Shown in pieces: positions 55-28,607 of a DNA stretch of 38,646 nt (position 1 is its first letter; each line of letters begins with the position of its first letter). The notes under the pieces were generated by a model. It was not told where the DNA came from, made no database searches, and saw only the letters and a list, made by a program, of their open reading frames with translations. The stretch is from the NCBI RefSeq assembly GCF_030382115.1, contig NZ_JAUDRJ010000003.1:7106144-7144789 (forward strand), written 5' to 3'. The position numbers and the translations under genes are program-made. Source of the stretch: Nostoc sp. GT001 (GTDB lineage Bacteria; Cyanobacteriota; Cyanobacteriia; Cyanobacteriales; Nostocaceae).

Positions 55-1039
55 AAGCTTGCTACCGCTAACAGCACTCCTAAAGTAAATAGAGACAGTG
101 TTGTTTGTCTTGAGGCATTTCTTCTCAAGCGATTTTAGTCTTTTGAAGCAACTCAGTTTCACAAGCTATTTTGCAACAAAAAATACATTTAACTAGACTA
201 TATTCAAAGTTTAGATAAAATTTATGCCTAGCATAACAATGTAATTATTGTTGGATTTCTATGGGTATTGGTGCCCAAATAAAATCCAATTAGGGTGGAT
301 TATCTCCCACATCAGCCATCACATTGAAGTTAACCATCGGTGCAAACAAGTAAGCGCTTCCCCGACTGCTATGACGGCTTTCTTGCAACGAATTTCTAGA
401 GTATGCTGCTCCAATCATGTTGCACACGGATGATTTACAGACTAACCAATTCACGTTTGTAATGACATGAATGGTTTTTAATAACAATTGTTTTTAACGA
501 TAACACATTTTATTTTTAGTGGAACACTCTCATGAAATAAGTTTAGTTCCAGAGTTTATTGTTAATGAGAATGAAGGAGATAAGTTAACTTTTTTACTAG
601 AGCGATGCCTTCGGTGGGCAAAGCCCAAGCTACTTACAAATATTTTTATACACTTAGATAAAATTCATTGAGGAGGGAGATTTAAAAACTCCTGTCAGCG
701 GTTCTTGGCATTTTTGCCTATATTTATCTTATTACTGATAAAAGTAATTTTATGATTGAGCTTTCAACTTATTTGACATCTACTATGCTTGTGACACCCT
801 CTTAGTTAAAAAGCCAAACTAGCTCAAAATATTTATTTTGTCCACATACTTGCTATCTAAAATATTGTGAATCACCCATTCGGGTGAGCCAAAAGGGTGA
901 TGTGTGCTTGGTACTACTCGTTATAAATTTTATTTAAAGAAAGCTAAAACGTAGCTTAGTTTCGAGGATAAATCTACAAAAAAACATCTAATTTCCCAAA
1001 TTGAGGTATCGGTTTTAACTCACATACTTGGTTCAAATT
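55..1039. other. Gene-poor interval of about 1 kb
   Basis: No convincing gene was found. Short open frames around 248-433 (plus) and 290-487 (minus) overlap each other, have no ribosome binding site and do not resemble a known family. The interval holds one interspersed repeat copy (602-633) and a small hairpin, TCACCC-ATTC-GGGTGA, at 872-887, with a further copy of GGGTGA just after it. The last part presumably contains the promoter of the small gene at 1040. Confidence 0.6.
602..633 (+). repeat. Divergent copy of the GCGATGCC...GGGC interspersed repeat
   Basis: It starts GCGATGCCTTCGGTGGGC and continues with an imperfect inverted half. It belongs to the family of about 30-bp repeats found at nine other places here (1431, 5174, 12639, 18175, 18584, 19842, 25745, 25833, 26355). 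Confidence 0.55.
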
Positions 1040-1363: not shown

Positions 1364-1924
1364 AATAACACCTTTATAAGTTATCTTCCTGATTTAGTGC
1401 AAATATTTCATACCAAGTAGTTAGCATAGGTGTAGCCCGCCCCAGGCATCGCTTTTCTTAATTAACTGCTTGGTAGGGCTTTCATCCGATTATTTATGGG
1501 GTTTCCCTTCTGCTTCCTGGCTTGAGAGTGCTGAGTGCTATCTTTGATAGCCCAATTTTATTAAAAAATAATTAAAAATTTCACTTTACTGGACACAGCT
1601 ATGGGGAATTTTCACCCTCAGCCAAGAATCTCGAATTGATCCCCGGAAGCAATACTAAAATAAATATAAATTATTTATTCAAAACTAAATTTTTTTAAGT
1701 GATACATACCAGTCAATGATTAAATTTTAATATACCAAGTACATGGCTCAGAGTCAGGCATAGAATTAGAAACACCTTGGTGTAAACTTTAGCAACGAGG
1801 TTAAAAATAATTCTCAATGCTTAACAAAGTCATCGCTTTTTCACAAACTACTGTATAAAGAATTGGCAACATTGGTAAAGAGAGTAAACAATAACCATAG
1901 CTAAACTTGGAGTTTTGCCAACTT
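1364..1924. other. Intergenic region upstream of glgP
   Basis: It contains an interspersed repeat copy at 1431-1452 and AT-rich DNA. No open frame of useful length, RNA gene or clear terminator was found. The glgP promoter should lie in the last 200 bases, but no sigma-70 pair convinced me. Confidence 0.5.
1431..1452 (-). repeat. Partial copy of the GCGATGCC...GGGCTACG repeat
   Basis: Read on the minus strand it is GCGATGCCTGGGGCGGGC followed by TACA, a shortened copy of the roughly 30-bp repeat family of this window. Confidence 0.6.
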
Positions 1925-5157: not shown

Positions 5158-5173
5158 ATCAGAAATTTAATTG

Positions 5174-5198
5174 TGTAGCTTGCCGCCGTAGGCATCAC
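5174..5198 (-). repeat. Copy of the GCGATGCCTACGGCGGGC repeat family
   Basis: Minus strand GTGATGCCTACGGCGGCA followed by AGCTACA. It lies just behind the brnTA module. Confidence 0.55.
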
Positions 5199-12638: not shown

Positions 12639-12667
12639 GCGATGTCTACGACGGGCTTACGCCTACG
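12639..12667 (+). repeat. Copy of the GCGATGTCTACGACGGGC repeat family
   Basis: Begins GCGATGTCTACGACGGGC, then TTACGCCTACG. A near full-length copy in the intergenic DNA between the convergent Rpn gene and the gene at 12683. Confidence 0.7.
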
Positions 12668-17793: not shown

Positions 17794-17858
17794 GGCTGAG
17801 ATTCCCGACTTCTTTTACAAGTCGGGAATCTTTTTCAATCTATAAAGGGATTCGTAAA
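17790..17858. repeat. 69-bp direct repeat, copy A, at the 3' end of the PIN toxin gene
   Basis: It begins CCAAGGCTGAGATTCCCGAC, contains the 12-bp inverted stem GATTCCCGACTT (17800-17811) with AAGTCGGGAATC (17819-17830) followed by TTTTT, and runs into the last codons of the PIN gene. Copy B with the same parts in the same order is at 18598-18666. Confidence 0.8.
17800..17836 (+). terminator. Terminator-like hairpin in repeat copy A
   Basis: A perfect 12-bp stem, 7-base loop and TTTTT on the plus strand. It points away from the minus-strand genes on both sides, so its role may be as repeat DNA rather than as their terminator. Confidence 0.5.
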
Positions 17859-18281
17859 CCGCACGCCCTCAATCGTCGCACCTGATGCAAAATTCTCAGT
17901 GTAAACTTCTTCAATTTGGTTGAGTCGCGCCGTTGACCAAATTTGCGCGTCCCAAAACCCGAAGTGATGAGTTTCCACGCCGCGAATTGCTTCTAAGGAA
18001 ATGAGCCGTGTAATATCAACGACATGGCAAGCAGCTAAATAGTTACGCATTCGTACCAGCGCTTCAGCCGGAGTTAACAACAATCGCCGAGTCCGGGTTG
18101 TGGCCATAAAAAACTCTCCCAACACCTGGGTACTAATTACCGCCTTGCCAGAACGAATCAATTGGTCAGTAAGTGCGTAGGCTTTGCCCGCCGTAGGCAT
18201 CGCTCGTTCCTGTTTTGCGGTATCCAGTGGATCGTAGATGTAAACAAGAATGTTGGTATCAAGTAAAATTCTACCGTTCAT
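17835..18281 (-). CDS. PIN-domain toxin (VapC-like ribonuclease) with repeat insertion
   Basis: A 148-aa PIN protein from ATG 18281: ILLDTNILVYIYDP carries the first catalytic Asp (D8), VLGEFFM the acidic Glu, and FGFWDAQIW the next Asp. The end reads YTENFASGATIEGVRFTNPFID, where family members usually have EDF, so the last acidic position is changed to Asn. Residues 27-36 (AMPTAGKAYA) do not fit the family and are encoded by a copy of the interspersed repeat at 18175-18203; removing them restores a normal ERA-LTDQL helix. The start overlaps the antitoxin stop by 11 bases. PIN toxins are RNases. Whether this insertion-bearing one is active is open. Confidence 0.85.
   Translation of the reverse strand: MNGRILLDTNILVYIYDPLDTAKQERAMPTAGKAYALTDQLIRSGKAVISTQVLGEFFMATTRTRRLLLTPAEALVRMRNYLAACHVVDITRLISLEAIRGVETHHFGFWDAQIWSTARLNQIEEVYTENFASGATIEGVRFTNPFID
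18175..18203 (-). repeat. Interspersed repeat copy inside the PIN gene
   Basis: On the coding strand it begins GCGATGCCTACGGCGGGC and continues AAAGCCTACGC, read as AMPTAGKAYA. Orientation and reading frame are the same as in the kinase copy at 26355. Confidence 0.85.
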
Positions 18282-18528
18282 ACAGGTCTTCACGCTGCCA
18301 GTCCCGACCTCCAAGTTGAGCCGATCGAGTTTTGATTTGGTCAATAAATTCCCTTTCGGCTTCCCACATTGCAAGATTGGTTTGGGGTGCAGTTATTTCA
18401 CCAAGATGAAGGTCAATAGCTTGGCGAATAATCTCTGCTTCACTTACACCCGCTTGTTGGGCGATCACTTTTAGCAGATGTTCTTGATGCGGTTCAATAT
18501 AAATCTGCTTACGAATTTTACTCGACAC
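18271..18528 (-). CDS. Ribbon-helix-helix antitoxin
   Basis: An 85-aa protein with an N-terminal ribbon-helix-helix: KIRKQIYIEPHQEHLLKVIA, QQAGVSEAEIIRQAIDLHL. The C-terminal part (LAMWEAEREFIDQIKTRS...GGRDWQREDLYER) is charged and probably binds the toxin. The pair overlaps by 11 bases (ATG of the toxin inside the last codons), the usual coupled antitoxin-toxin order. ATG 18528 is the start. It likely represses its own promoter in the 18529-18600 region. CopG-type family, symbol not assigned. Confidence 0.85.
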   Translation of the reverse strand: MSSKIRKQIYIEPHQEHLLKVIAQQAGVSEAEIIRQAIDLHLGEITAPQTNLAMWEAEREFIDQIKTRSAQLGGRDWQREDLYER

Positions 18529-18583
18529 AATTTAAATTGTATCTAATGTATACATTGAATTATACATTACTTTCTAGTAAGGT

Positions 18584-18596
18584 GCGTAGGCATCGC
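18584..18596 (-). repeat. Short fragment of the GCGATGCCTACGC repeat
   Basis: Only GCGATGCCTACGC remains: the two outer ends of the repeat joined, as after deletion of the middle. It immediately precedes direct repeat copy B. Confidence 0.55.
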
Positions 18597-18597
18597 T

Positions 18598-18666
18598 CCA
18601 AGGCTGAGATTCCTGACTTCTAATAAAAGTTGGGAATCTTTTTTAATCTGTAAAAGGATTTGTAAA
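18598..18666. repeat. 69-bp direct repeat, copy B, upstream of the PIN/RHH module
   Basis: It has the same order as copy A (CCAAGGCTGAGATTCCTGAC, hairpin, T-run, AATCTGTAAAAGGATTTGTAAA). The two copies start 808 bp apart and bracket the toxin-antitoxin module. Confidence 0.8.
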
Positions 18667-18669
18667 TCT
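18643..18669 (-). pseudogene. Relic: last codons of a second PIN gene
   Basis: Read on the minus strand the repeat copy B ends RFTNPFTD-stop, which matches RFTNPFID-stop at the end of the intact PIN gene. Upstream of it the frame is closed. It is therefore the scar of a lost tandem or related toxin gene. Confidence 0.65.
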
Positions 18670-18688
18670 CTAACTTGTCTGAAATGAT

Positions 18689-19621
18689 ATGAGTTTCATA
18701 AAAGCATTTGGGAATTATGTGATTAAGTACATTCGTCTTAAACTCATGGGTTTTCTAGTCTCTCTTATAACTAGCCTAATTGCAATTCTCGTTTATCTCA
18801 ATACAGATAGGATATCTAGTGAAAGGTCACGTTTAGCAATACGTGGAATTATGATATTAATTGGCAGTATTGCAGTACTGAATTCTTTTTCTAGGCTTTT
18901 GGTGATTGTCCCACCTGGTAATGTCGGTGTCGTCAATTTCTTTGGTGAGGTTTCCGAAACTACTCTTAATCCTGGTGTCCACTTGCTTAACCCCTTTAGC
19001 AAGGTGCTGAATTTTTCTACTCGCATTAAGGATATAAAAGAAAATGTAGATGCAACATCCCAAGAAGGTTTGAGCCTAAATCTTGATGTCAGCCTTCAGT
19101 ACAAGCTCGATCCGCAAAAGGCAGCTACAGTCTATAAAACAATTGGAACTGATGAAACACAACTGGTGATTTCCAGATTCCGCTCTACCGTCCGCGCCAT
19201 CACGGCAAATTACCCAGCCAATGCTATTTACTCTACCAAACGCCAAGAAATCGCCCAAAAAATTGACCAACAACTCACCCAAGAGATACCAGCTTTGGGT
19301 TTCATCGTTGAGGAAGCTCTTTTAAGAAACATCAAAATGCCTGATACTCTACAAGCTGCAATTCAAAACAAACTCAAGACAGAGCAAGAAAATCAGCAGA
19401 TGAAATTTGTTTTAGAGAAAGAGCGTCAAGAGGCACAACGAAAGCTGATTGAAGCGCGAGGTATAGCTGATTCCCAAAAAATTCTCTCAGGTGGACTTAG
19501 TAACCAAATGCTACAATTACGAGCGATTGAAGCCACAGAAAAGCTAGCTCAATCTAATAATTCTAAGTTGGTAATTATTGGCTCTGAAAAAAGCGCGGTG
19601 CCTATTATGATCCAGCCATAA
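18689..19621 (+). CDS. SPFH/prohibitin family membrane protein
   Basis: A 310-aa protein with two N-terminal hydrophobic segments (about 20-37, FLVSLITSLIAILVYL; and 50-63, RGIMILIGSIAVLN), followed by a classic SPFH/Band 7 domain: VPPGNVGVVNFFGEVSETTLNPGVHLLNPFSKVLNFSTR, and LNLDVSLQYKLDPQKAATVYKTIG. The C-terminal third is a long coiled coil (KLKTEQENQQMKFVLEKERQEAQRKLIEARGIADSQ), then EKLAQSNNSKLVIIG. Prohibitin-like proteins form rings in membranes and organise or protect other membrane proteins. ATG 18689 lacks a strong ribosome site. It is flanked by toxin-antitoxin modules on both sides. Confidence 0.9.
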   Translation: MSFIKAFGNYVIKYIRLKLMGFLVSLITSLIAILVYLNTDRISSERSRLAIRGIMILIGSIAVLNSFSRLLVIVPPGNVGVVNFFGEVSETTLNPGVHLLNPFSKVLNFSTRIKDIKENVDATSQEGLSLNLDVSLQYKLDPQKAATVYKTIGTDETQLVISRFRSTVRAITANYPANAIYSTKRQEIAQKIDQQLTQEIPALGFIVEEALLRNIKMPDTLQAAIQNKLKTEQENQQMKFVLEKERQEAQRKLIEARGIADSQKILSGGLSNQMLQLRAIEATEKLAQSNNSKLVIIGSEKSAVPIMIQP

Positions 19622-19675
19622 ACAGGAACCTCAAAGCCATAAAATTTTCTGATCGAGTCAATGGCTTGAGAGAAT

Positions 19676-19849
19676 TTAAATTGTATGGAGTATATGTAAC
19701 TGTAACAAATCACGTCTGGCTTTTTTCCAATCTTGAGCTTCATCTACTATGAGCAATGATAATAAGTTACCAGCTTGCTCTAAAGCTTTTTCTCCCAGGA
19801 TTTCGCCAGTTTTTTCAAAAGCTTTCGTAATCACTAAGGTAGCGATGTC
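19676..19849 (-). pseudogene. Truncated gene relic (about 55 codons)
   Basis: The minus-strand frame ending TAA 19676-19678 is open back to the interspersed repeat at 19842 and reads TLVITKAFEKTGEILGEKAL, then EQAGNLLSLLIVDEAQDWKK and ARRDLLQLHILHTI. The 'KAFEKTGE.LGEKALEQAGNLL' pattern is a helix seen in many cyanobacterial hypothetical and effector proteins, as I recall it. No good start codon exists; the frame closes inside the repeat, which may have cut off the 5' part. Coding-like composition but no full gene. Confidence 0.4.
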
Positions 19850-19870
19850 TACGACGGGCTACGCCTACGC
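19842..19870 (+). repeat. Copy of the GCGATGTCTACGACGGGC repeat family
   Basis: Full-length copy: GCGATGTCTACGACGGGC then TACGCCTACGC. It abuts the gene relic on its left. Confidence 0.75.
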
Positions 19871-20087
19871 ACCTGCTCTCAGGGTTACAGGCTTCATATT
19901 TTACCCATTAATTACGAAATAACACTGTGAGATATTTTACTTTAGTGCATCTCATCTGAGAAGAGATAATACAAAATTATTAAGATTTATATTGAAAGGC
20001 GGGTTTTATCGCGTTTTTATCTTAAGTAAAATTTCACAACTACATTTACTAAAGCCATACTATATTTATTAACGCTAAAGTCAGAGT
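19871..20087. other. Intergenic DNA before the RelE-type module
   Basis: AT-rich. A short imperfect hairpin, ATCTCATCTGAGAAGAGAT, is near 19949-19967. The promoter of the antitoxin operon should lie here; no clear operator palindrome was found. Confidence 0.45.
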
Positions 20088-20315
20088 ATGACTACTAAAA
20101 TCACAACCCTAATGCAAGCTGATAAATACCCTTTTGCTCAAGAACTGATTACTGATAAGGAAGGTAATATCCGCAAAGTAATCATAGATTTTGATGACTA
20201 TCTACGCTTGCTAGAAGCTATTGAGGATGAAGGACTGGTCTTAGCAATGAAAGCAGTAGAACATGAAAGACCTCTGAATATTGATGAAGCATTAGCACAA
20301 CTAGAACAAGAGTGA
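20088..20315 (+). CDS. Antitoxin of RelE-type module
   Basis: A 75-aa acidic protein: an N-terminal beta-rich part (KITTLMQADKYPFAQELITDKEGNIRKVIIDFDDY) followed by a helix (LRLLEAIEDEGLVLAMKAVEHERPL) and an acidic tail (NIDEALAQLEQE). This layout is common to Phd/DUF2281-like cyanobacterial antitoxins, in which DFDDYLRLLE marks the Phd-type strand-helix. Its TGA overlaps the GTG start of the toxin (GTGA at 20312-20315), so translation is coupled. ATG 20088. Assignment as antitoxin rests mainly on its partner. Confidence 0.8.
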   Translation: MTTKITTLMQADKYPFAQELITDKEGNIRKVIIDFDDYLRLLEAIEDEGLVLAMKAVEHERPLNIDEALAQLEQE

Positions 20316-20584
20316 TTACCCAATATCTACCAAGCTTTATCAAGGATCTCAAGGCTCTGAAAAGTACACCTTACTATGAGACTATTAGAGTCCTTGCTTT
20401 TGAAGAAATACCACAAATATCAACCTTTGAAGAAATTGCTAACCTCAAAAAACTTCAAGGTTATGAAAATGCTTATCGCATCCGTGTCGGTGATTATCGT
20501 ATTGGACTTATTTTTGATGGAGAAACAGTCCTATTTCAGCGAGTACTACACCGGAAAGATATTTATCGTTATTTTCCCAAATAA
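20312..20584 (+). CDS. RelE/ParE-family toxin
   Basis: A 90-aa protein with the RelE superfamily profile: N-terminal helix FIKDLKALKSTPYYETI, middle FEEIANLKKLQGYENAYRIRVGDYRIGLIF, and the C-terminal signature VLHRKDIYRYFP. These small proteins cleave mRNA in the ribosome or act on gyrase. GTG 20312 overlaps the antitoxin's stop codon by four bases. No antisense or second module is adjacent. The Y-R-I-R-V-G-D-Y-R motif is the typical RelE beta-sheet face. Activity is inferred, not shown. Confidence 0.87.
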   Translation: MITQYLPSFIKDLKALKSTPYYETIRVLAFEEIPQISTFEEIANLKKLQGYENAYRIRVGDYRIGLIFDGETVLFQRVLHRKDIYRYFPK

Positions 20585-20796
20585 AATCATTTTCAATGAT
20601 TTGACGAATAGAATTCGCGCTCATACAAACATAGACGCTTTGCAGCTTAACACAGGGTAGTCTACTTACGCGGGCTAATAAAAATTAAATTTTTAAAACC
20701 TGCAAAAGCAAGTTTTAAATGTATGCAAGATGAACTGCAATTTATAATCGCCACTTTTTTAATTACAAATTACGAACTACGAATTACGAATTAATA
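20585..20796. other. Intergenic DNA with AATTACGAA tandem words
   Basis: No gene. The last part (20759-20794) is a run of AATTACGAA/ACTACGAATT words, a simple repeat also present at 29441-29459. It forms the leader of the nuclease gene. Confidence 0.5.
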
Positions 20797-21489
20797 ATGC
20801 AATTTGATACCCAACTGCTACCACGCATTAATGCCACAGCTAAAAGAGAAAATGGTAAACAATATTATGTAGATGCCAAGGGAAATCGCTTTCCCAGTGT
20901 TACTACAATACTTAATGCCACTAAATCACAAGTAGACAGAGACAGATTATTAAACTGGAAAGCGCGTGTTGGTACAGAAGAAGCTACCCGCATTACTACA
21001 TCTGCTAGTCGTCGGGGAACCCAAACACACAAACAAATTGAGCGCTACCTCCTTGGTCAAAACCCTGTTTGTCCCGAAGCAAGTCGCCCTTATTGGGAGA
21101 GTATCAAGCCAGTTTTACAAGAAATCGACACAGTTAGACTGGTGGAAGGCTCTGTTTTTCATCATAATTTGAGTTATTCTGGCAAAGTTGATTGTATTGC
21201 CAGCTATCAAGGTATTCCCTGTATTTGTGAGTGGAAAACAGCAGACAAACCCAAAGGTTCAATTGAGCATTTATATGAACATCCACTACAACTTACGGCA
21301 TACATAGGAGCAGCTAATGAGTATTATCGAGATTATGGCATTCAGCTAAAGCACGCTCTGTTAGTAGTAGCGATTCCAGAAATGCCAGCTGAGGTATTTT
21401 GGTTTGAATCAGCAGTTATTCAAGATTACTGGGAGCAGTGGGAAAAAAGAGTTGCTGAGTATTGGGAACGCAGAAGCGTTTGGGGTTAA
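20797..21489 (+). CDS. PD-(D/E)XK exonuclease (MGME1/RecB-like)
   Basis: A 230-aa protein with a complete RecB-type PD-(D/E)XK core: RRGTQTHKQIE (His78, motif before the core), VEGSVFHHNLSYSGKVDCIA (Asp132), CEWKTADKP (Glu145, Lys147), and HPLQLTAYI (Gln165, Tyr169). The order SVTTIL near the N-terminus and the spacing match the mitochondrial genome maintenance exonuclease 1 (MGME1) group, single-strand DNA exonucleases. ATG 20797 is the start. It is convergent with the Bax1 gene (18 bp apart), making a cluster of nucleases and an XPB helicase. In vivo role unknown; the active site looks intact. Confidence 0.85.
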   Translation: MQFDTQLLPRINATAKRENGKQYYVDAKGNRFPSVTTILNATKSQVDRDRLLNWKARVGTEEATRITTSASRRGTQTHKQIERYLLGQNPVCPEASRPYWESIKPVLQEIDTVRLVEGSVFHHNLSYSGKVDCIASYQGIPCICEWKTADKPKGSIEHLYEHPLQLTAYIGAANEYYRDYGIQLKHALLVVAIPEMPAEVFWFESAVIQDYWEQWEKRVAEYWERRSVWG

Positions 21490-21507
21490 TCAGCCCCTTT
21501 GGGGAAG

Positions 21508-22725
21508 TCAAAAATCCATTACAGCTAACACAGCTTTCGGCAATAACTTATCTTTAAACCAAACAATTCTCGCGGGGACATCATTTAATTTTACTCCCGC
21601 CTTTTCTAAATTAAGGCGCTCGGAAATAGCCAAAATTAAGTCATCACGTCCAGCCCGCCGCACCTGAGAAAACTTCTTTTGTAAATATTCAGGCCGCCAA
21701 TAACCAACAATTTCTAACAAAAAGGTGCGGCCATCAGCATGAACTAAGCGAAAATCAGGAATCATCACACTACCGGGAATTGGGATCAAATCAACTTCTC
21801 GCTCTAACGCCCAGCCACTTTTTAACGCATCCCACTTATCTGCAAAAGATGCTTCTAGCATACTATCGTAGGGTTTTCCTGGTGGATAGTGGGATACCAA
21901 ACCACATTCAGAATTGAGAGTGAAACGTCCAGTTTTCCAACTATTTGTATAAGCGTCACGGGTTTGGAGAATCGACGAAAGACTCCATTTGGTAACGTGA
22001 AGTAAAGCCGGAATAAGTTTAGCGATCGCTAACCCATATCGCGTACTAGGATTAAACAAGCTTGTCGGCCCATCAATGGTAATTGTAAACCCGTGGTCAG
22101 CATCACCTTCAATATAAGCCATCAATTGAAACAACTTCAAATAGCGAAATAACAGCTTATATTCTCCCGGAACATTGCGATGAGCATTTAACACCAGTTT
22201 ACTGGCCTTATAAAACACACCCTGCACCTGAGATAAGTTATATCTATTTAATAAATCTGGCGCTGTTGGTGCATCAAAAACAGTCAAAATCTTATTTTCA
22301 GATAAATCAGCATATAATCCATTGCGAACCTGTTCTAATAAAACTTCCCGCTCAAGTTCTTGAGTTAACTCATCAGCAATTTTACTCAAAGTAACTTGGG
22401 TAGATTCTCGACTAGAAACCGACTTTGCAGCCAGAGAAAACACCCGTTCTCTTAACATCTGGGGTTCCAAAGGACTAACCACCTCAAAAGTGCAAAAACT
22501 ACTTTTGAGAATATAAGCTAACCCTCGCTTCACCCGATAATCTGTAGAATCTCCTTCAAAATCAGTCAGTTGTCGCTCAAGCACACCTTGAGTCTTTCCC
22601 ACTGCTGATTGAAAATAATTAATTAACTCAATCGCCAAATCTGAAGTTGCTCGATCAATCTTCAGTCTCTTCGGGATGATCTCCTCCCCGTTTTGGCGAT
22701 GCATCAGTAAGTCTGTCGGTAACAT
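21508..22725 (-). CDS. Bax1-type nuclease (DUF790)
   Basis: A 405-aa protein of the DUF790 family, known from archaea as Bax1, the structure-specific nuclease that binds XPB helicase. MLPTDLLMHRQNGEEIIPKRLK is the family's start. The C-terminal PD-(D/E)XK domain is visible: SMLEASFADKW (Glu291), MIPDFRLV (Asp324), and FLLEIVGYWRPEYLQKK (Glu338, GYW motif). The N-terminal two-thirds is the XPB-binding and DNA-binding part in the archaeal homologue. It overlaps the 3' end of the helicase gene by 71 bases in another frame, so the two are co-transcribed, as helicase then nuclease. Confidence 0.87.
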   Translation of the reverse strand: MLPTDLLMHRQNGEEIIPKRLKIDRATSDLAIELINYFQSAVGKTQGVLERQLTDFEGDSTDYRVKRGLAYILKSSFCTFEVVSPLEPQMLRERVFSLAAKSVSSRESTQVTLSKIADELTQELEREVLLEQVRNGLYADLSENKILTVFDAPTAPDLLNRYNLSQVQGVFYKASKLVLNAHRNVPGEYKLLFRYLKLFQLMAYIEGDADHGFTITIDGPTSLFNPSTRYGLAIAKLIPALLHVTKWSLSSILQTRDAYTNSWKTGRFTLNSECGLVSHYPPGKPYDSMLEASFADKWDALKSGWALEREVDLIPIPGSVMIPDFRLVHADGRTFLLEIVGYWRPEYLQKKFSQVRRAGRDDLILAISERLNLEKAGVKLNDVPARIVWFKDKLLPKAVLAVMDF

Positions 22726-22754
22726 CTGTTGAATTTTGGATTTTAGATACTTCG

Positions 22755-22810
22755 ACTACTTCGACTTCGCTCAGTACAAGTTCGCTCAGTACAAGTTCGC
22801 TCAGTACAAG
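22755..22810. repeat. Three tandem 15-bp units in the helicase tail
   Basis: TCGCTCAGTACAAGT occurs three times in a row (about 22766-22810). On the coding strand it gives repeated ELVLS residues. Just beyond it ACTTCGACTACTTCGACTT is a related simple repeat. Confidence 0.8.
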
Positions 22811-22904
22811 TTTTGGATTTTGAACTGAATAATTAATTTTTAACTGTTCCGCCGCCTTCAAACTCCTTTCCTTCCCACTCCCATACACAACCTGTAAATT
22901 CCCT

Positions 22905-22943
22905 TTCTTTTCCCCTTGTCCCCTTGTCCTCTCCCCTCTCCGC
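22905..22943. repeat. CCCCTTGTC heptamer-type repeat within the helicase tail
   Basis: TTTTCCCCTTGTCCCCTTGTC followed by CTCTCCCCTCTCC; on the coding strand this reads RRRGERTRGQGEKKG. The same repeat recurs inside HpnB at 34781-34828. Confidence 0.75.
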
Positions 22944-24319
22944 CTAGCCGAAGTTCCCTCTTCACTCGTATCCTCCGCCACCACCTCATACAAAATCGCC
23001 TGTTTATTCTCAATATTCCCCTTCCGTAAAACCCTACCCAATCGCTGAGTATACTCCCTAGCCGAACCAGTTCCCGATAAAATAATTGCCACAGATGCCG
23101 CTAGGCACGTCAACCCCTTCGTTCAACACATGAGAAGCAACCAAAGTATTATATTTACCCTCCCGAAACTTTGTTAATATCTCATGGCGTTCTTTCACAG
23201 GAGTTTGATGAGTAATTGCTGGAATGAGCAACTCTTGAGAAATGCGGTAAACCGTCGCATTATCAGCAGTGAAAATTAAAATTCTTGCCGGATAATGTTC
23301 TGCCAATAAATTAATCAAAATTCGCAATTTTCCATCAGTACCCAAAGCGATATCTTTCGCTTCTCGGTGCGCTAACATCGCCCTACGTCCAGATTGCGAT
23401 CTAGCACTCATTTGCACAAACATTTGCCAACCTTGCAGACTCCCCAAAGAAATTTTCGATTGCTTCAAAAAGTCATTGCGGGTTTGAATTAACTGGTTGT
23501 ATCTTTCCCGTTCAAGCTGCGATAACTTTACCTTAATTTGGACAATTTCATGCTCTGCTAACGCCTTCCCTGCTAAATCTTCAGCGCGTTTGCGATATAC
23601 TTCTTGACCAATGAGGATATTTAAGTCAGCGTGTTTACCATCGGTACGTTCCGGTGTCGCGGAGAGTCCCAGGCGATAAGGTGCGATCGCATATTCAGCA
23701 ATCACCCGATTAAAATCTGTAGGTAAATGATGACATTCATCAAAAACAATCAACGCATATTGATTTCCTAACGTTTCGGCGTGAATTGCGGCACTATCGT
23801 AAGTTGCAACTAAAATTGCCGTTCTATCCCGCGAACCACCTCCCAGCAATCCCACCTCAGCATCAGGGAAAGCCGCTACTAAATGTGCATACCACTGATG
23901 CATCAAATCCAAAGTTGGCACTACAATCAGCGTCGTGCGCGGCGTTGATTGCATCGCCATTTGCGCCAAATAAGTCTTTCCCGCCGCCGTGGGAAGCACA
24001 ACTACCCCTTGCCTACCCGCCAGTTTCCAAGCCGCTAGCGCCTCAGTTTGGTGGGGATAGGGTTCCATTTCTAGAGTAGGAACCAAATCTACAGGATAAA
24101 ATTGCTTGGCCTCATCGATAAAATTCACATCTTCCGCTTGTAGTGCTTCTACTAGCGATCGGTATCTAATTGCTGGGATGCGGAATTTTTCAACTCTATC
24201 ATCCCACGTAGCATAGTCCATCCAACCTTTGCCGCGTGGTGGTGGATGCAAAATTAATGTGCCACGATCAAAATTTAATGTAGGGGTACGAGCCATGATT
24301 ATTGGGCATTGGGCAATTC

Positions 24320-24386
24320 AATTTTGGATTTTGGATTTTAGATTTTGGATTAAATTTCAATTTAAAATCCAAAATCTAAAATTCTT
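24320..24386. repeat. Inverted repeat of TTTTGGATT / AATCCAAAA words
   Basis: ATTTTGGATTTTGGATTTTA is answered by AAAATCCAAAATCTAAAATT (24364-24383), between the divergent helicase and cyclase genes. It could form a hairpin, but has no T-run of its own. Confidence 0.6.
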
Positions 24387-24418
24387 ACTCCCTTAATTAC
24401 TAATAACGTAAAAAGTGC

Positions 24419-25720
24419 ATGATTAATCCAACTAACTCCGACAAAAGCCAACTAGATGCGCTCATTAGTCACGGAATGTCCTATCGGCAAACCAACAATA
24501 ACCTGTCCGAATCTTACAAAGAACAGCGACAGAGCTTTTTGTTGAAACGGCTGCAATTGCAGGCGCAGATTATGTTGGTAGCTGGCTTGACTTTAATTGC
24601 TTTTTTTCTTTGGGTAAATTCACAACTAGAAGGCAAGATATACGCTTTTAAAATTGGGTTTGTAGTAGAATTATTTACTCTTATTTGTTGGGGTTTATGC
24701 AAAACTCCTATCGGTCGCCGCTATCCTGATTTAATTTTTTTGAGTTTATGCTGGTCTGTAACTTGTACCGTTCAAATTGATATAGCTTTGCTGTTCAATA
24801 ATTTAGAGCCGAGAATCAATATTTGGACTTTGATGTTTCTTACTCAAGCTACAATCATTCCAGTCCAATGGTGGATGCATTTAATATCTCAAATTGGAAC
24901 AATACTTTGCTATTTAACTTTATATATTTTATATAGCCCCATCTTGAAAAATCCGTCAGCTTTTTATATTGAACAAGGATTATATTTTTTTTGGACTTGT
25001 ATAATTTGTGTTTTTTCTGTCTATTTATACGAACACTTACGAAAAAAAGAATTTTACGCTCGTAAGGCAATGGAACTAGCACAGCACAAATCAGAACGGC
25101 TGCTACTAAATATTTTGCCAGAGATGATTGCAGAACAATTAAAACAACAGCCGGCAACTATTGCCGATAATTTTCTAGAAGTTACGGTGCTATTTGCTGA
25201 TATTGTTGGCTTTACAGAGCTTTCATCTCACACCTCACCGGCGGAATTAGTCGAGTTATTAAATACAATATTCTGTCTGTTTGACCAATTAGCAGAACGT
25301 CATGGGGTAGAGAAAATTAAGACCATTGGCGATGCATATATGGCTGTAGCTGGGTTGCCAAATCAATCTAACAATCATGCTCCAGCAATGGCTAACATGG
25401 CTTTGGATATGCAAAAGGCTGTAGCTACTTTTAACAAAGAAAATAACCAATCCTTTAGCATTCGTATTGGCATAAGTACAGGGCCAGTAGTAGCAGGAGT
25501 GATTGGGCTGAAAAAGTTTGCTTACGACCTTTGGGGAGATACAGTCAATATAGCTAGTAGAATGGAATCACATGGTATTGCAGGTAGTATCCAGGTTTGT
25601 GAAGCAAGTTATCAGATTTTAAAGGATAAATACTTATTGGAGAAACGAGGTTTAATTCAAGTGAAAGGTAAAGGTGAAATGATGACTTATATACTAAAGG
25701 GAATTAATTTAAAAACTTAA
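24419..25720 (+). CDS. Membrane adenylate cyclase (class III)
   Basis: A 433-aa protein. Residues about 40-210 contain six hydrophobic segments (for example IMLVAGLTLIAFFLWV, GLYFFWTCIICVFSVYLY), and residues 250-430 are a class III cyclase domain. Key residues are present: FADIVGFTELS (metal Asp), EKIKTIGDAYMA (adenine-specifying Lys and second metal Asp), YDLWGDTVNIASRMES (adenine-specifying Asp, transition-state Asn and Arg). The K...D pair is typical of adenylate, not guanylate, cyclases. The cytosolic domain makes cAMP; the membrane part probably senses a signal. ATG 24419 chosen. No cAMP receptor gene is in the window. Confidence 0.92.
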   Translation: MINPTNSDKSQLDALISHGMSYRQTNNNLSESYKEQRQSFLLKRLQLQAQIMLVAGLTLIAFFLWVNSQLEGKIYAFKIGFVVELFTLICWGLCKTPIGRRYPDLIFLSLCWSVTCTVQIDIALLFNNLEPRINIWTLMFLTQATIIPVQWWMHLISQIGTILCYLTLYILYSPILKNPSAFYIEQGLYFFWTCIICVFSVYLYEHLRKKEFYARKAMELAQHKSERLLLNILPEMIAEQLKQQPATIADNFLEVTVLFADIVGFTELSSHTSPAELVELLNTIFCLFDQLAERHGVEKIKTIGDAYMAVAGLPNQSNNHAPAMANMALDMQKAVATFNKENNQSFSIRIGISTGPVVAGVIGLKKFAYDLWGDTVNIASRMESHGIAGSIQVCEASYQILKDKYLLEKRGLIQVKGKGEMMTYILKGINLKT

Positions 25721-25744
25721 TAAATAGGAGTCAGAATTCAGAAT

Positions 25745-25764
25745 GGGCTACGCCTCGCTGCGCT
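25745..25764 (+). repeat. Partial copy (GGGCTACGCC) of the interspersed repeat
   Basis: GGGCTACGCCTCGCTGCGCT, sharing the second half of the family. It follows a GAGTCAGAATTCAG repeat. Confidence 0.5.
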
Positions 25765-25832
25765 AACAGAATCCAGAATATTTTACCCATAAAGTTAGGT
25801 ATGTATTTTTCCGATGCATTATTAGGTGTTGA

Positions 25833-25860
25833 GCGATGTCTATGACGGGCTACGCCTACA
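25833..25860 (+). repeat. Near full-length copy of the interspersed repeat
   Basis: GCGATGTCTATGACGGGC followed by TACGCCTACA, about 60 bases before the kinase start and in the same orientation as the copy inside its PAS domain. Confidence 0.7.
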
Positions 25861-25904
25861 TATTTTCTAGCTGATTTTGGGAATAATCCTTTAGCTAGCT
25901 GCAT

Positions 25905-25911
25905 AAAGGAG
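25905..25911 (+). promoter_or_regulatory. Ribosome binding site deciding a TTG start
   Basis: AAAGGAG lies eight bases before TTG 25920. No ATG nearby gives the first DUF4118 membrane segment, so the TTG is supported as the true start. Confidence 0.7.
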
Positions 25912-25919
25912 AAGCCACA

Positions 25920-28607
25920 TTGAAAGGAACACGTTCCCTTCTAGCGCCTTATGCTGTGGCACTATTGGCTGTTGGTAGCGTATTGCTGCTAACACTATTG
26001 CTACAGCCACTACTGAAACAAATGATTTTCCTGCTGTTTTTTGCTGCCGTGGCGGTTAGTGCCTGGTATGGCGGCATGGAAGCAGGATTACTGGCTACTG
26101 CTTTGTCTACTTTAGCCGTCAGCTATTTTTTCTTAGAACCAGTATTTTCGCTCTTGGTTGCGAGTCTAGACAACATACTGCGCTTAGGCTTGTTTGTGCT
26201 GGTGACAACAATTATTAACTTGCTGAACTCAGAATTACGCACTACCAAACAACATCTTCAAACGAGTTTGCAGAAACTACAGGTGAGCGAAGCCAGATTT
26301 AGAGGGTTGGTAGAGTCCAACATCATTGGAGTAATTGTAGCCAATATGGACGGGGCGATGCCTACAGCGGGCTACGCCTACGCAGAGGCTAATGATGCTT
26401 TTTTACAAATGATAGGTTATTCGCAGGAGGATTTAATCGCAGGACGAGTCAGATGGCGCGAGATGATTCCACCAGAATATATTGAAACTAACAACAGTGC
26501 GATTGCAGAACTCACAACGAAAGGCGTGTGTCAGCCTTTTGAGAACGAATACATCCGCAAAGATAAGAGCCACGTTCCCATCCTGTTAGCTTCTGCTTTG
26601 TTAGAAAATAACCAAGATGATATTATCTCTTTTGTAATCGATTTAAGTAAACACAAACAAGTAGAGCTTGCCCTTTCCAAAAGCGAAGAACGCTACCGCG
26701 CTTTTTTAGAGCATAGTTCAGAAGGTATTTGGTGCATTGAACTGGAAGTACCAATTTCAGTAGATTGTCCAGAGGATGAACAAATTCAACATTTTTACCA
26801 ATATGTTTACCTGGCAGAATGCAACAATGTTATGGCGCAGATGTATGGCTGTTCTCGTGCCGAAGAAATTCTCGGTGTCAGACTAGGAGACTTTCTTGTT
26901 GCCTCCGATCCACATAACATTACATACCTGCGCAATTTTATCCGTTCTAACTACCGACTAATCGATGCCGAGTCCCATGAAATAGATAAGCAAGGTAATT
27001 CCAAATATTTTTTGAATAATCTGGTGGGAATTGTCGAAAATGGGTTTTTAGTGAGAGCGTGGGGAACTCAACGCGACATTACAGAACGCAAACGAGCGGA
27101 AGCAGCACTCCGTCAACGAGAAGATGAACTGCGCCTAATTACCAATGCTGTGCCCGCCAAGATTTCTTATGTTGATAGCGAACAACGTTATCGCTTTAAT
27201 AATAAAGAATATGAAGACTGGTTTGAGCTTCCTGCTTCCGAAATTTCTGGTAAACACATTAGAGAAATTTTGGGAGAGTCGGTTTATCAGTCAATTCTCC
27301 CTTATGTAGAAGCAGTACTCTCAGGAGAGCAAGTAACTTACGAAACCCAATTACCTAATAAAGATGGCACAAACCATTACGTGAATGTCACTTACATTCC
27401 CCAGTTCAGTCAGGAGGGGAAAGTTGCAGGATTTGTTGCTCTAATCACAGATATTACACTTCACAAGTTAGCAGAAGCAGCTCTCAAACAAAGCGAGAAA
27501 CGGTTAAAGACGCTGACAGAAAAAGTCCGCGTGATTCCTTGGGAGGTAAATGCCACTACCGGGAATTTTACTTATGTAGGGCCACAAACTGTTGAGATTC
27601 TAGGCTATCCATTATCAGACTGGTACACCGATAATTTTTGGGCAAAAAATATGCATCCAGAAGATCGGGAGTGGGCTATCCAGTATTATCAAGAATCTTC
27701 ACTGTCACTAAATAATTACGAACTTGAATACAGAATGTTGGCAGCTGATGGCAGAGTTGTTTGGCTATATGACATTGTGAATGTGGTGCGGAACGAAAAG
27801 GGGCCGCAGCTACTACACGGATTCATGATTGACATCACCGATCGCAAGCAAGCAGAGCAAGAACGCGAAGAACTGCTTAAACGCGAACAAGCAGCACGCG
27901 CCGATGCCGAAACTGCCAACCGGATGAAAGATGAGTTTCTCGCCACACTTTCCCACGAACTCCGTACACCCCTAAATGCTATACTTGGCTGGGCACAGCT
28001 ACTTAGAACTCGCAAATTCGATCAAGCTACTACTGGACGGGCACTAGAGACAATTGAACGTAATGCGAGATCCCTGACACAACTAATTGAAGATGTTCTC
28101 GATGTGTCACGGATTATTAGAGGCACACTCCATTTAAGTAGAGAGCGGGTAGAACTTGTACCACTTGTAGAGGCAGCAATCGATACTGTGTACCCAGCAG
28201 CCCAGGCTAAAGAGATTAATATCAAGTGTAAATTCGACCCGAAAGTAGAGGTAGTTGTGGGTGATGCCAACCGCTTGCAACAAGTTGTGTGGAATTTGCT
28301 CTCCAACGCCGTCAAGTTTACACCCAAGGGCGGCAGAGTTGATGTGCAATTAGAGTGCATTGAATCTTACGTGCAAATTCGGGTGAGTGATACGGGAGCG
28401 GGAATTGCTGCCGAATTCCTACCCCATGTATTTGAACGCTTTCGTCAAGCTGACAGTTCTAGCACGCGATCGCATGGCGGACTAGGATTAGGGTTAGCGA
28501 TCGTCCGTCACTTGGTAGAATTACACGGTGGCACAGTTTTGGCCGAAAGTCCAGGAATTGGACAGGGGGCGACATTCGTTGTCAGTCTCCCCATGAAAGC
28601 TATTTAG
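25920..28607 (+). CDS. Multi-PAS sensor histidine kinase with DUF4118 membrane domain
   Basis: An 895-aa kinase. Residues 1-100 are a KdpD-like DUF4118 module of four hydrophobic segments (LLAPYAVALLAVGSVLLLTL ... ILRLGLFVLVTTIINLL). Four PAS/PAC domains follow (for example residues 120-255, 260-395, 400-525, 530-655). HisKA contains FLATLSHELRTPLN with phospho-acceptor His679; HATPase has the N box NRLQQVVWNLLSNAVKFTP, DTGAGIA, and GGLGLGLAIVRHLVELHGG. Residues 146-155 (AMPTAGYAYA) in PAS 1 come from the repeat at 26355 and interrupt the NMDG-EANDAF loop. No response regulator is adjacent, so this is an orphan kinase. Signal unknown. Confidence 0.93.
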   Translation: MKGTRSLLAPYAVALLAVGSVLLLTLLLQPLLKQMIFLLFFAAVAVSAWYGGMEAGLLATALSTLAVSYFFLEPVFSLLVASLDNILRLGLFVLVTTIINLLNSELRTTKQHLQTSLQKLQVSEARFRGLVESNIIGVIVANMDGAMPTAGYAYAEANDAFLQMIGYSQEDLIAGRVRWREMIPPEYIETNNSAIAELTTKGVCQPFENEYIRKDKSHVPILLASALLENNQDDIISFVIDLSKHKQVELALSKSEERYRAFLEHSSEGIWCIELEVPISVDCPEDEQIQHFYQYVYLAECNNVMAQMYGCSRAEEILGVRLGDFLVASDPHNITYLRNFIRSNYRLIDAESHEIDKQGNSKYFLNNLVGIVENGFLVRAWGTQRDITERKRAEAALRQREDELRLITNAVPAKISYVDSEQRYRFNNKEYEDWFELPASEISGKHIREILGESVYQSILPYVEAVLSGEQVTYETQLPNKDGTNHYVNVTYIPQFSQEGKVAGFVALITDITLHKLAEAALKQSEKRLKTLTEKVRVIPWEVNATTGNFTYVGPQTVEILGYPLSDWYTDNFWAKNMHPEDREWAIQYYQESSLSLNNYELEYRMLAADGRVVWLYDIVNVVRNEKGPQLLHGFMIDITDRKQAEQEREELLKREQAARADAETANRMKDEFLATLSHELRTPLNAILGWAQLLRTRKFDQATTGRALETIERNARSLTQLIEDVLDVSRIIRGTLHLSRERVELVPLVEAAIDTVYPAAQAKEINIKCKFDPKVEVVVGDANRLQQVVWNLLSNAVKFTPKGGRVDVQLECIESYVQIRVSDTGAGIAAEFLPHVFERFRQADSSSTRSHGGLGLGLAIVRHLVELHGGTVLAESPGIGQGATFVVSLPMKAI
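26355..26383 (+). repeat. Interspersed repeat copy inside the kinase PAS domain
   Basis: GCGATGCCTACAGCGGGC followed by TACGCCTACGC, in frame as AMPTAGYAYA. Confidence 0.85.

Follow-up and report, generated by a model that had tools for sequence, protein, structure and literature searches.

A 21-nt SDR5-type repeat inside HIP1 octamers encodes predicted seven-residue, strain-variable inserts in unrelated genes of Nostoc

Why do two unrelated genes contain almost the same short peptide segment? The question is raised by a 38,646-nt stretch of the genome of Nostoc sp. GT001 (GCF_030382115.1, NZ_JAUDRJ010000003.1, positions 7,106,144 to 7,144,789 of the forward strand), hereafter called the window. 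A short repeat occurs once in a gene for a PIN-domain protein and once in a sensor histidine kinase gene, within the part for PAS domain 1 (Table 1), and the orientation and frame of the two copies relative to the host gene are identical. A sequence-only reading of the window had claimed that both copies are in frame and in the same orientation to give AMPTAG(K/Y)AYA in the two proteins, and this description is borne out. Its count of at least eight other copies between genes also holds, since eight further copies are found beyond the called genes, four near full length (2–6 mismatches) and four degenerate or truncated. The repeats are not identical by chance: an 11-mer of the repeat matches the window eight times where 0.52 matches are expected, a 29-nt pattern matches it six times and matches none of 20 shuffles, and the whole genomes of GT001 and a same-genus relative (G014) contain 138 and 223 copies, respectively, while the reversed pattern gives none.

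The repeat has the structure GCGAT-[21 nt]-CGC, in which 21 nt interrupt the octamer HIP1 (GCGATCGC). On the opposite strand, the insert lies at the junction of HIP1 nucleotides 3 and 4. A search for the element core free of its flanks gives 90 places. Both HIP1 halves are exact in 24 of the 30 places fetched, and 29 of the 30 have at most one HIP1 mismatch (base rate, 2.5e-5). The length of 21 nt is determined by comparison of filled and empty alleles. These 21 nt can be read as two hairpins, each of 3 bp and with a 3-nt loop. Hairpin 1 covaries, with C-G and T-A pairs at positions 2–8, and none of 5000 shuffles, which ignore relatedness, is as good.

SDR5 repeats, as described by Elhai and co-workers in 2008, reportedly form a size class of 21–27 nt, are said to have a hairpin backed by compensatory changes, and are reportedly dispersed in many copies through Nostoc and its near relatives. 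The length of the present element is within this range. One exact form of the repeat is present in all 23 same-genus genomes and in 2 of 16 other genomes, and the genomes among the matches listed (80 named) are nearly all Nostocales by name, together with one metagenome-assembled genome labelled Aliterella. The repeat is very probably SDR5, matched on target, size, hairpin, and dispersal. According to the excerpt of PMC4390886 consulted (citing Elhai et al. 2008), the SDR5 module enters HIP1 exactly at the junction of nucleotides 3 and 4, which is the same precise insertion as that of the GT001 repeat. What this study adds to SDR5 as described is in-frame seven-residue inserts in six genes that also have empty alleles. 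No report of a translated SDR5 was found in the literature searched, a search outside which the founding SDR5 paper lies, and the novelty of the translated inserts is thus provisional.

The filled and empty alleles should be described here. Seven sites in six genes are HIP1, intact or mutated, in some strains and HIP1 plus 21 nt in others (the counts take in the GT001 locus itself). At kinase site 1, the site in Table 1 that is filled in GT001, 24 of 27 loci were read; six are filled and 18 are empty, 17 of the latter being exactly GCGATCGC. At site 2, also in PAS domain 1 (22 of 27 loci read), ten loci are filled, 11 are empty, and one has a longer composite insert. Both kinase sites are filled in two loci. 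At the PIN site, two of the five loci read (out of seven) are filled, one of which (L174) is a PIN-like frame with stops, and the empty alleles are GCGATCGC (L169 and L171) and GCAATCGC (L170). Aligned orthologues with and without the insertion, a comparison put forward by the sequence-only reading, differ by 21 nt at HIP1 in both the PIN and kinase genes. The other four genes were identified from PDB matches. IspE, an important enzyme of the methylerythritol phosphate isoprenoid pathway, has the insert in seven of 28 loci read (30 were fetched, drawn from 52 genomes with a match), typically as DASGGLRQR in place of DR. A debranching-enzyme homologue is filled in six of 30 loci in an alignment where some rows are ragged. 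One sugar kinase is filled in 4/30 loci with the element forward in phase 2, and a second, a xylulose-kinase homologue read in 19 of 20 loci, is filled in three with the element reverse in phase 1. The filled sites in the six genes span all four stop-free frames of the consensus. The idea that a dispersed repeat creates peptide insertions in unrelated genes is supported, repeatedly so in Nostoc genomes.

The reading frame is kept because 21 nt corresponds to seven codons. The consensus is open in four of the six frames (three forward and one reverse), and some variants are open in a second reverse frame (L016 and L402). In 14 evenly spaced 20-kb stretches of the GT001 genome, the three phases of HIP1 inside genes occur at 75:61:30 (n = 166), and the phase read as Ala-Ile-Ala is the commonest (75/166). 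In this phase the consensus is open in the forward orientation only, giving A-MPTAGYAY-A or a variant such as A-MSTTGYAY-A. Since the forward element is open and HIP1 inside genes is most often Ala-Ile-Ala, the same peptide in two unrelated genes is to be expected, and the identical peptide in the PIN protein and the kinase needs no special mechanism. The other open frames are also occupied, as found in IspE and the two sugar kinases.

To determine how often the element lies inside genes, we masked the repeat before gene calling, which keeps stops in the element from having any influence. A home-made caller with 137 long training open reading frames was used, and a copy was regarded as inside a gene if it lies at least 90 nt within a called gene. 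In total 205 copies were sampled, 109 of the 138 in GT001 and 96 of the 223 in the relative. Inside genes are 37 of the 205 (24/109 and 13/96, respectively), none with a stop: 13 are forward in phase 0, 16 forward in phase 1, six reverse in phase 1, and two forward in phase 2. The remaining copies lie outside genes (139) or near or across a gene end (29). By the same rule, 166 of 257 empty HIP1 sites are inside genes, and the element is strongly depleted there relative to this control, taken from GT001 only (odds ratio 0.12, p 1.7e-24). Judging by eye from the printed stretches, a Pfam match encloses at least 14 of the 24 copies that GT001 has inside genes, counting one match below the Pfam cut-off. 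A third sample consists of 119 genome-contig loci among the matches listed, with some orthologous insertions repeated, and 38 of its 152 copies are inside genes. Stop-bearing copies are far below the expectation for random orientation, both in the first two samples (0/37, p 4e-6) and in all three (2/75, p 6e-9), where the expected stop rate of 28.5% is hand-derived from the control phases. When genes are called unmasked in GT001, 40 of the 109 copies overlap called genes, four of them at the gene start only, and no interrupted gene is apparent at the other 69. A frame-blind test with flanks of 120–150 nt is underpowered, passing 1–21 copies per genome and setting, of which at most one has a stop.

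These observations are very probably explained by a 21-nt SDR5 element in HIP1 that gives strain-variable, tolerated seven-residue insertions, the harmful ones being mostly purged. A short double hairpin would be the unit that moves, or did so recently, and the insertion machinery would add it inside GCGATCGC without target duplication. As HIP1 is common in genes, some insertions would fall within genes, where the codon phase of HIP1 and the orientation of the element would fix the peptide; Ala-Ile-Ala with a forward element would become A-MPTAGYAY-A or a close variant, and therefore the same insert would arise in two unrelated proteins. Insertions that bring stops or damage the protein would mostly be purged, and the rest would persist as tolerated inserts that vary among strains, presumably neutral at the protein level. 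A role of the element in protein evolution, raised in the sequence-only reading, is at most a possibility, given the strong depletion inside genes.

Several points weigh against this explanation. The folding energies of the element are no better than those of shuffles. The gene limits are those of the home-made caller alone. Two of the 38 inside-gene copies in the third sample have stops, both in ABC transporter genes. With HIP1 in phase 1, in which either orientation is free of stops, forward copies outnumber reverse ones by 34:10 over the three samples (p 0.0004), and the contrast in orientation between phase 1 and phases 0 and 2 is non-significant (Fisher, 0.06 and 0.11). The forward orientation is also the commoner one within 300 nt upstream of genes (54:32), while there is no bias downstream (47:42), in GT001 and the relative. 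Because the forward bias is found also where both orientations are open, stop avoidance is not cleanly separable from it. Finally, no insertion in progress was seen, and the inserted peptides are predicted ones.

The distribution of carriers on gene trees bears on whether the same HIP1 sites have been hit repeatedly. Trees were constructed without the insert columns for IspE, the debranching-enzyme homologue, and the two sugar kinases, with two unread IspE loci (L161 and L165) scored as empty by match length; the PIN site is left out of the trees and of the variant tests below. The carriers are scattered on all four trees, and the 20 carriers need at least 18 changes (IspE, seven changes for seven carriers; debranching-enzyme homologue, 6/6; the two sugar kinases, 3/4 and 2/3). 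This scatter would fit independent insertion at hot sites, as would the variant sharing among carriers at two sites, which is weak at kinase site 1 (p 0.034) and non-significant at the xylulose-kinase homologue (p 0.25). However, carriers share element variants beyond random copies at five of the six sites tested (p 0.00005–0.034), and the commonest variants at IspE and one sugar kinase are each represented by a single copy in a pool of 232, GT001's own copy included, which speaks for one origin and later loss or recombination. Repeated hits are accordingly unlikely, and the data seem to agree better with old insertions that were later lost precisely, or with recombination that exchanged alleles, on trees where many branches are weakly supported.

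Might the inserts instead be kept for a benefit, with SDR5 exapted as a source of adaptive seven-residue insertions, for example in PAS sensing? Different strains have the insert at two separate sites of one PAS domain (11 and 21 of the 120 listed homologues), another PAS kinase (L014) contains it close to where its PAS match begins, and the carriers are spread over diverged strains. On the other hand, genes hold a smaller share of copies than of empty HIP1 sites, most orthologues in the loci read have no insert, and the inserts occur in unrelated proteins and in the stop-bearing PIN-like frame L174. We thus regard a benefit as improbable. The positions of the inserts were examined in structure models of the filled PIN allele and of the kinase with site 1 filled and site 2 empty. 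The PIN model has a mean predicted local distance difference test score (pLDDT) of 89, falling to ~50 over residues 21–30, and places the insert at the break between helices 21–27 and 30–43, where it apparently splits a helical segment instead of lengthening a loop. The kinase model, with a predicted template modelling score of 0.32, allows a local reading only. Residues 145–151 have pLDDT below 50, and the insert is predicted to be mostly coil between strand 137–142 and a short strand at 156–157, namely a loop, whereas site 2, empty in the GT001 protein, is predicted to be within a helix (residues 185–201). The loop placement claimed earlier for the inserts is therefore consistent with kinase site 1 but not with the PIN insert or kinase site 2, that is, with one of three modelled sites.

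A repetitive extragenic palindromic (REP) or REPIN-type sequence moved by a Y1 transposase (REP-associated tyrosine transposase, RAYT) is about equally improbable as the identity of the element. The reverse strand of the element contains GTAG, and, in the excerpt of PMC3733652 consulted, REPs with GTAG/CGTC tags are found inside open reading frames of several bacteria with REP-encoded residues, and GTAG-tagged REPs are reported from Nostoc punctiforme. They resemble the GT001 repeat as short repeats that encode amino acids. However, the REPs of that excerpt are linked to RAYT and have no fixed target octamer described, and the 21-nt, HIP1-targeted form of the GT001 repeat is unlike that description. 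A link to RAYT is not seen: none of the four Y1 matches in GT001, one of which has stops, has a copy in the 3.2–3.3 kb fetched for each. The likeness to Rickettsia palindromic elements drawn in the sequence-only reading stands for the mode of insertion but not for membership. Those elements are 105–146 bp long with terminal inverted repeats and, like the GT001 repeat, are dispersed between genes and fused in frame in conserved protein genes, as given in the excerpt of PMC2229807. The GT001 repeat is 21 nt long, with one fixed 8-nt target, seven residues, and a handful of possible peptides. Because the target octamer is fixed and the length is seven codons, its outcome is predictable, unlike that of the Rickettsia elements or REPs.

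Wider homologue searches give 335 PIN homologues and 5954 kinase homologues. The insert is found in none of the 120 PIN homologues among the matches listed, a few of which lack the region. Among the 120 kinase homologues listed, site 1 is filled in 11, has a longer nested insert in three, and is empty in 94; eight were mis-anchored by the script (empty by eye) and four are unreadable. Site 2 is filled in 21, longer in six, empty in 44, unread in 48, and mis-anchored in one. Several Nostoc relatives of the kinase have the same insert as GT001, while site 1 has none in the listed homologues from named non-Nostoc sources. The earlier statement that family members have nothing like the segment thus holds for the PIN family and fails for the Nostoc kinases and L174. 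That the families have long contained the segment as a conserved part, and that some lineages have since lost it, can be dismissed: the presence of the segment in several Nostoc kinases, and nothing further, speaks for this, whereas the empty alleles are HIP1 or point-mutated HIP1, more distant homologues have empty alleles too, and the segment is absent from the listed PIN homologues and from site 1 of the listed non-Nostoc kinases.

The explanation by tolerated SDR5 insertions joins two puzzles of cyanobacteria, why HIP1 is so abundant and how very small repeats move, to an outcome at the protein level by a simple rule, in which target phase and orientation together give the peptide. In six genes, alleles with and without the insert offer material on how proteins tolerate a fixed seven-residue insertion, and they bear on whether tiny elements leave their target scar-free. 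We offer only tentatively, as a possibility with the odds against it, that HIP1 and SDR5 form a reversible genome-wide system of in-frame insertion and deletion, in which precise gain and loss of 21 nt would maintain, within a population, standing alleles with and without seven residues in many proteins, IspE included, and HIP1 phase would set the peptide.

Table 1. Host genes, repeat copies, and target site in the window
Feature	Position	Strand	Remarks
PIN-domain protein gene with insert	17835..18281	-	Pfam PF01850, E 6.1e-7
SDR5-type copy in PIN gene	18175..18203	-	HIP1 halves 18199-18203 and 18175-18177; 21-nt insert 18178-18198; AMPTAGKAYA
PAS-domain sensor histidine kinase gene, insert in PAS domain 1	25920..28607	+	Pfam PAS_8 125-182, HisKA, HATPase_c
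SDR5-type copy in kinase gene	26355..26383	+	GCGAT 26355-26359; 21-nt insert 26360-26380; CGC 26381-26383; AMPTAGYAYA
Second target site, same PAS domain	26499..26506	+	Empty and degenerate in GT001 (GCGATTGC); filled in 10/22 loci read
Diverged copy, outside called genes	602..630	+	6 mismatches
Copy, outside called genes	1424..1452	-	4 mismatches
Degenerate copy, outside called genes	~5170..5198	-	Boundaries approximate
Degenerate copy with indel, outside called genes	~12639..12667	+	Boundaries approximate
Truncated copy	18584..18596	-	HIP1 halves separated by 5 nt only
GTC/GAC hairpin-type copy, outside called genes	19842..19870	+	2 mismatches against GCC/GGC consensus
Fragment GGGCTACGCC, 5' of kinase gene	25745..25754	+	
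Copy, 5' of kinase gene	25833..25861	+	5 mismatches

The truncated copy in Table 1 is possibly a remnant of a deletion. The window has no match to an Rfam family at gathering scores, and no viral-contig stretch matches the two-type pattern exactly, which rejects an Rfam family and a phage carrier as candidates. In the two ABC transporter genes mentioned above (L358:4076 and L378:5474), the stop-bearing element lies in Ala-Ile-Ala after LSGGQ, and the gene is apparently broken.

Six of 46 matching plasmid records were opened, picked by eye for named products, and their frames were taken from the printed coordinates. The element is inside DUF499, DUF1822, and IS982 transposase genes, forward in phase 0; near the ends of histidine-kinase and DsbA-family genes, reverse in phase 1; and, in an epoxide-hydrolase-family gene, at the start codon given by the annotation. 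The ATG in the GCG-ATG of the element is the annotated or called start codon at L471:1504 (NZ_CP046704.1) and in L015, L068, L080, and L096. Start codons supplied by the element may change N-termini or mislead start annotation.

At the kinase sites, five homologues (P0124, P0126, P0127, P0131, and P0189) have an extra insert within the SDR5 peptide, either the eight-residue VTELCRSA or a longer relative, which suggests nested small repeats in coding frame. The longer composite insert at site 2 (IPSLRDATPTVSFSTRRSANAN or close) is found in L057, P0130, and P0160–P0162. The element of the second PAS kinase (L014:1501), near the start of the PAS match, is read in another frame (DVYDGLRLR) and seemingly lies at the same turn as kinase site 1.

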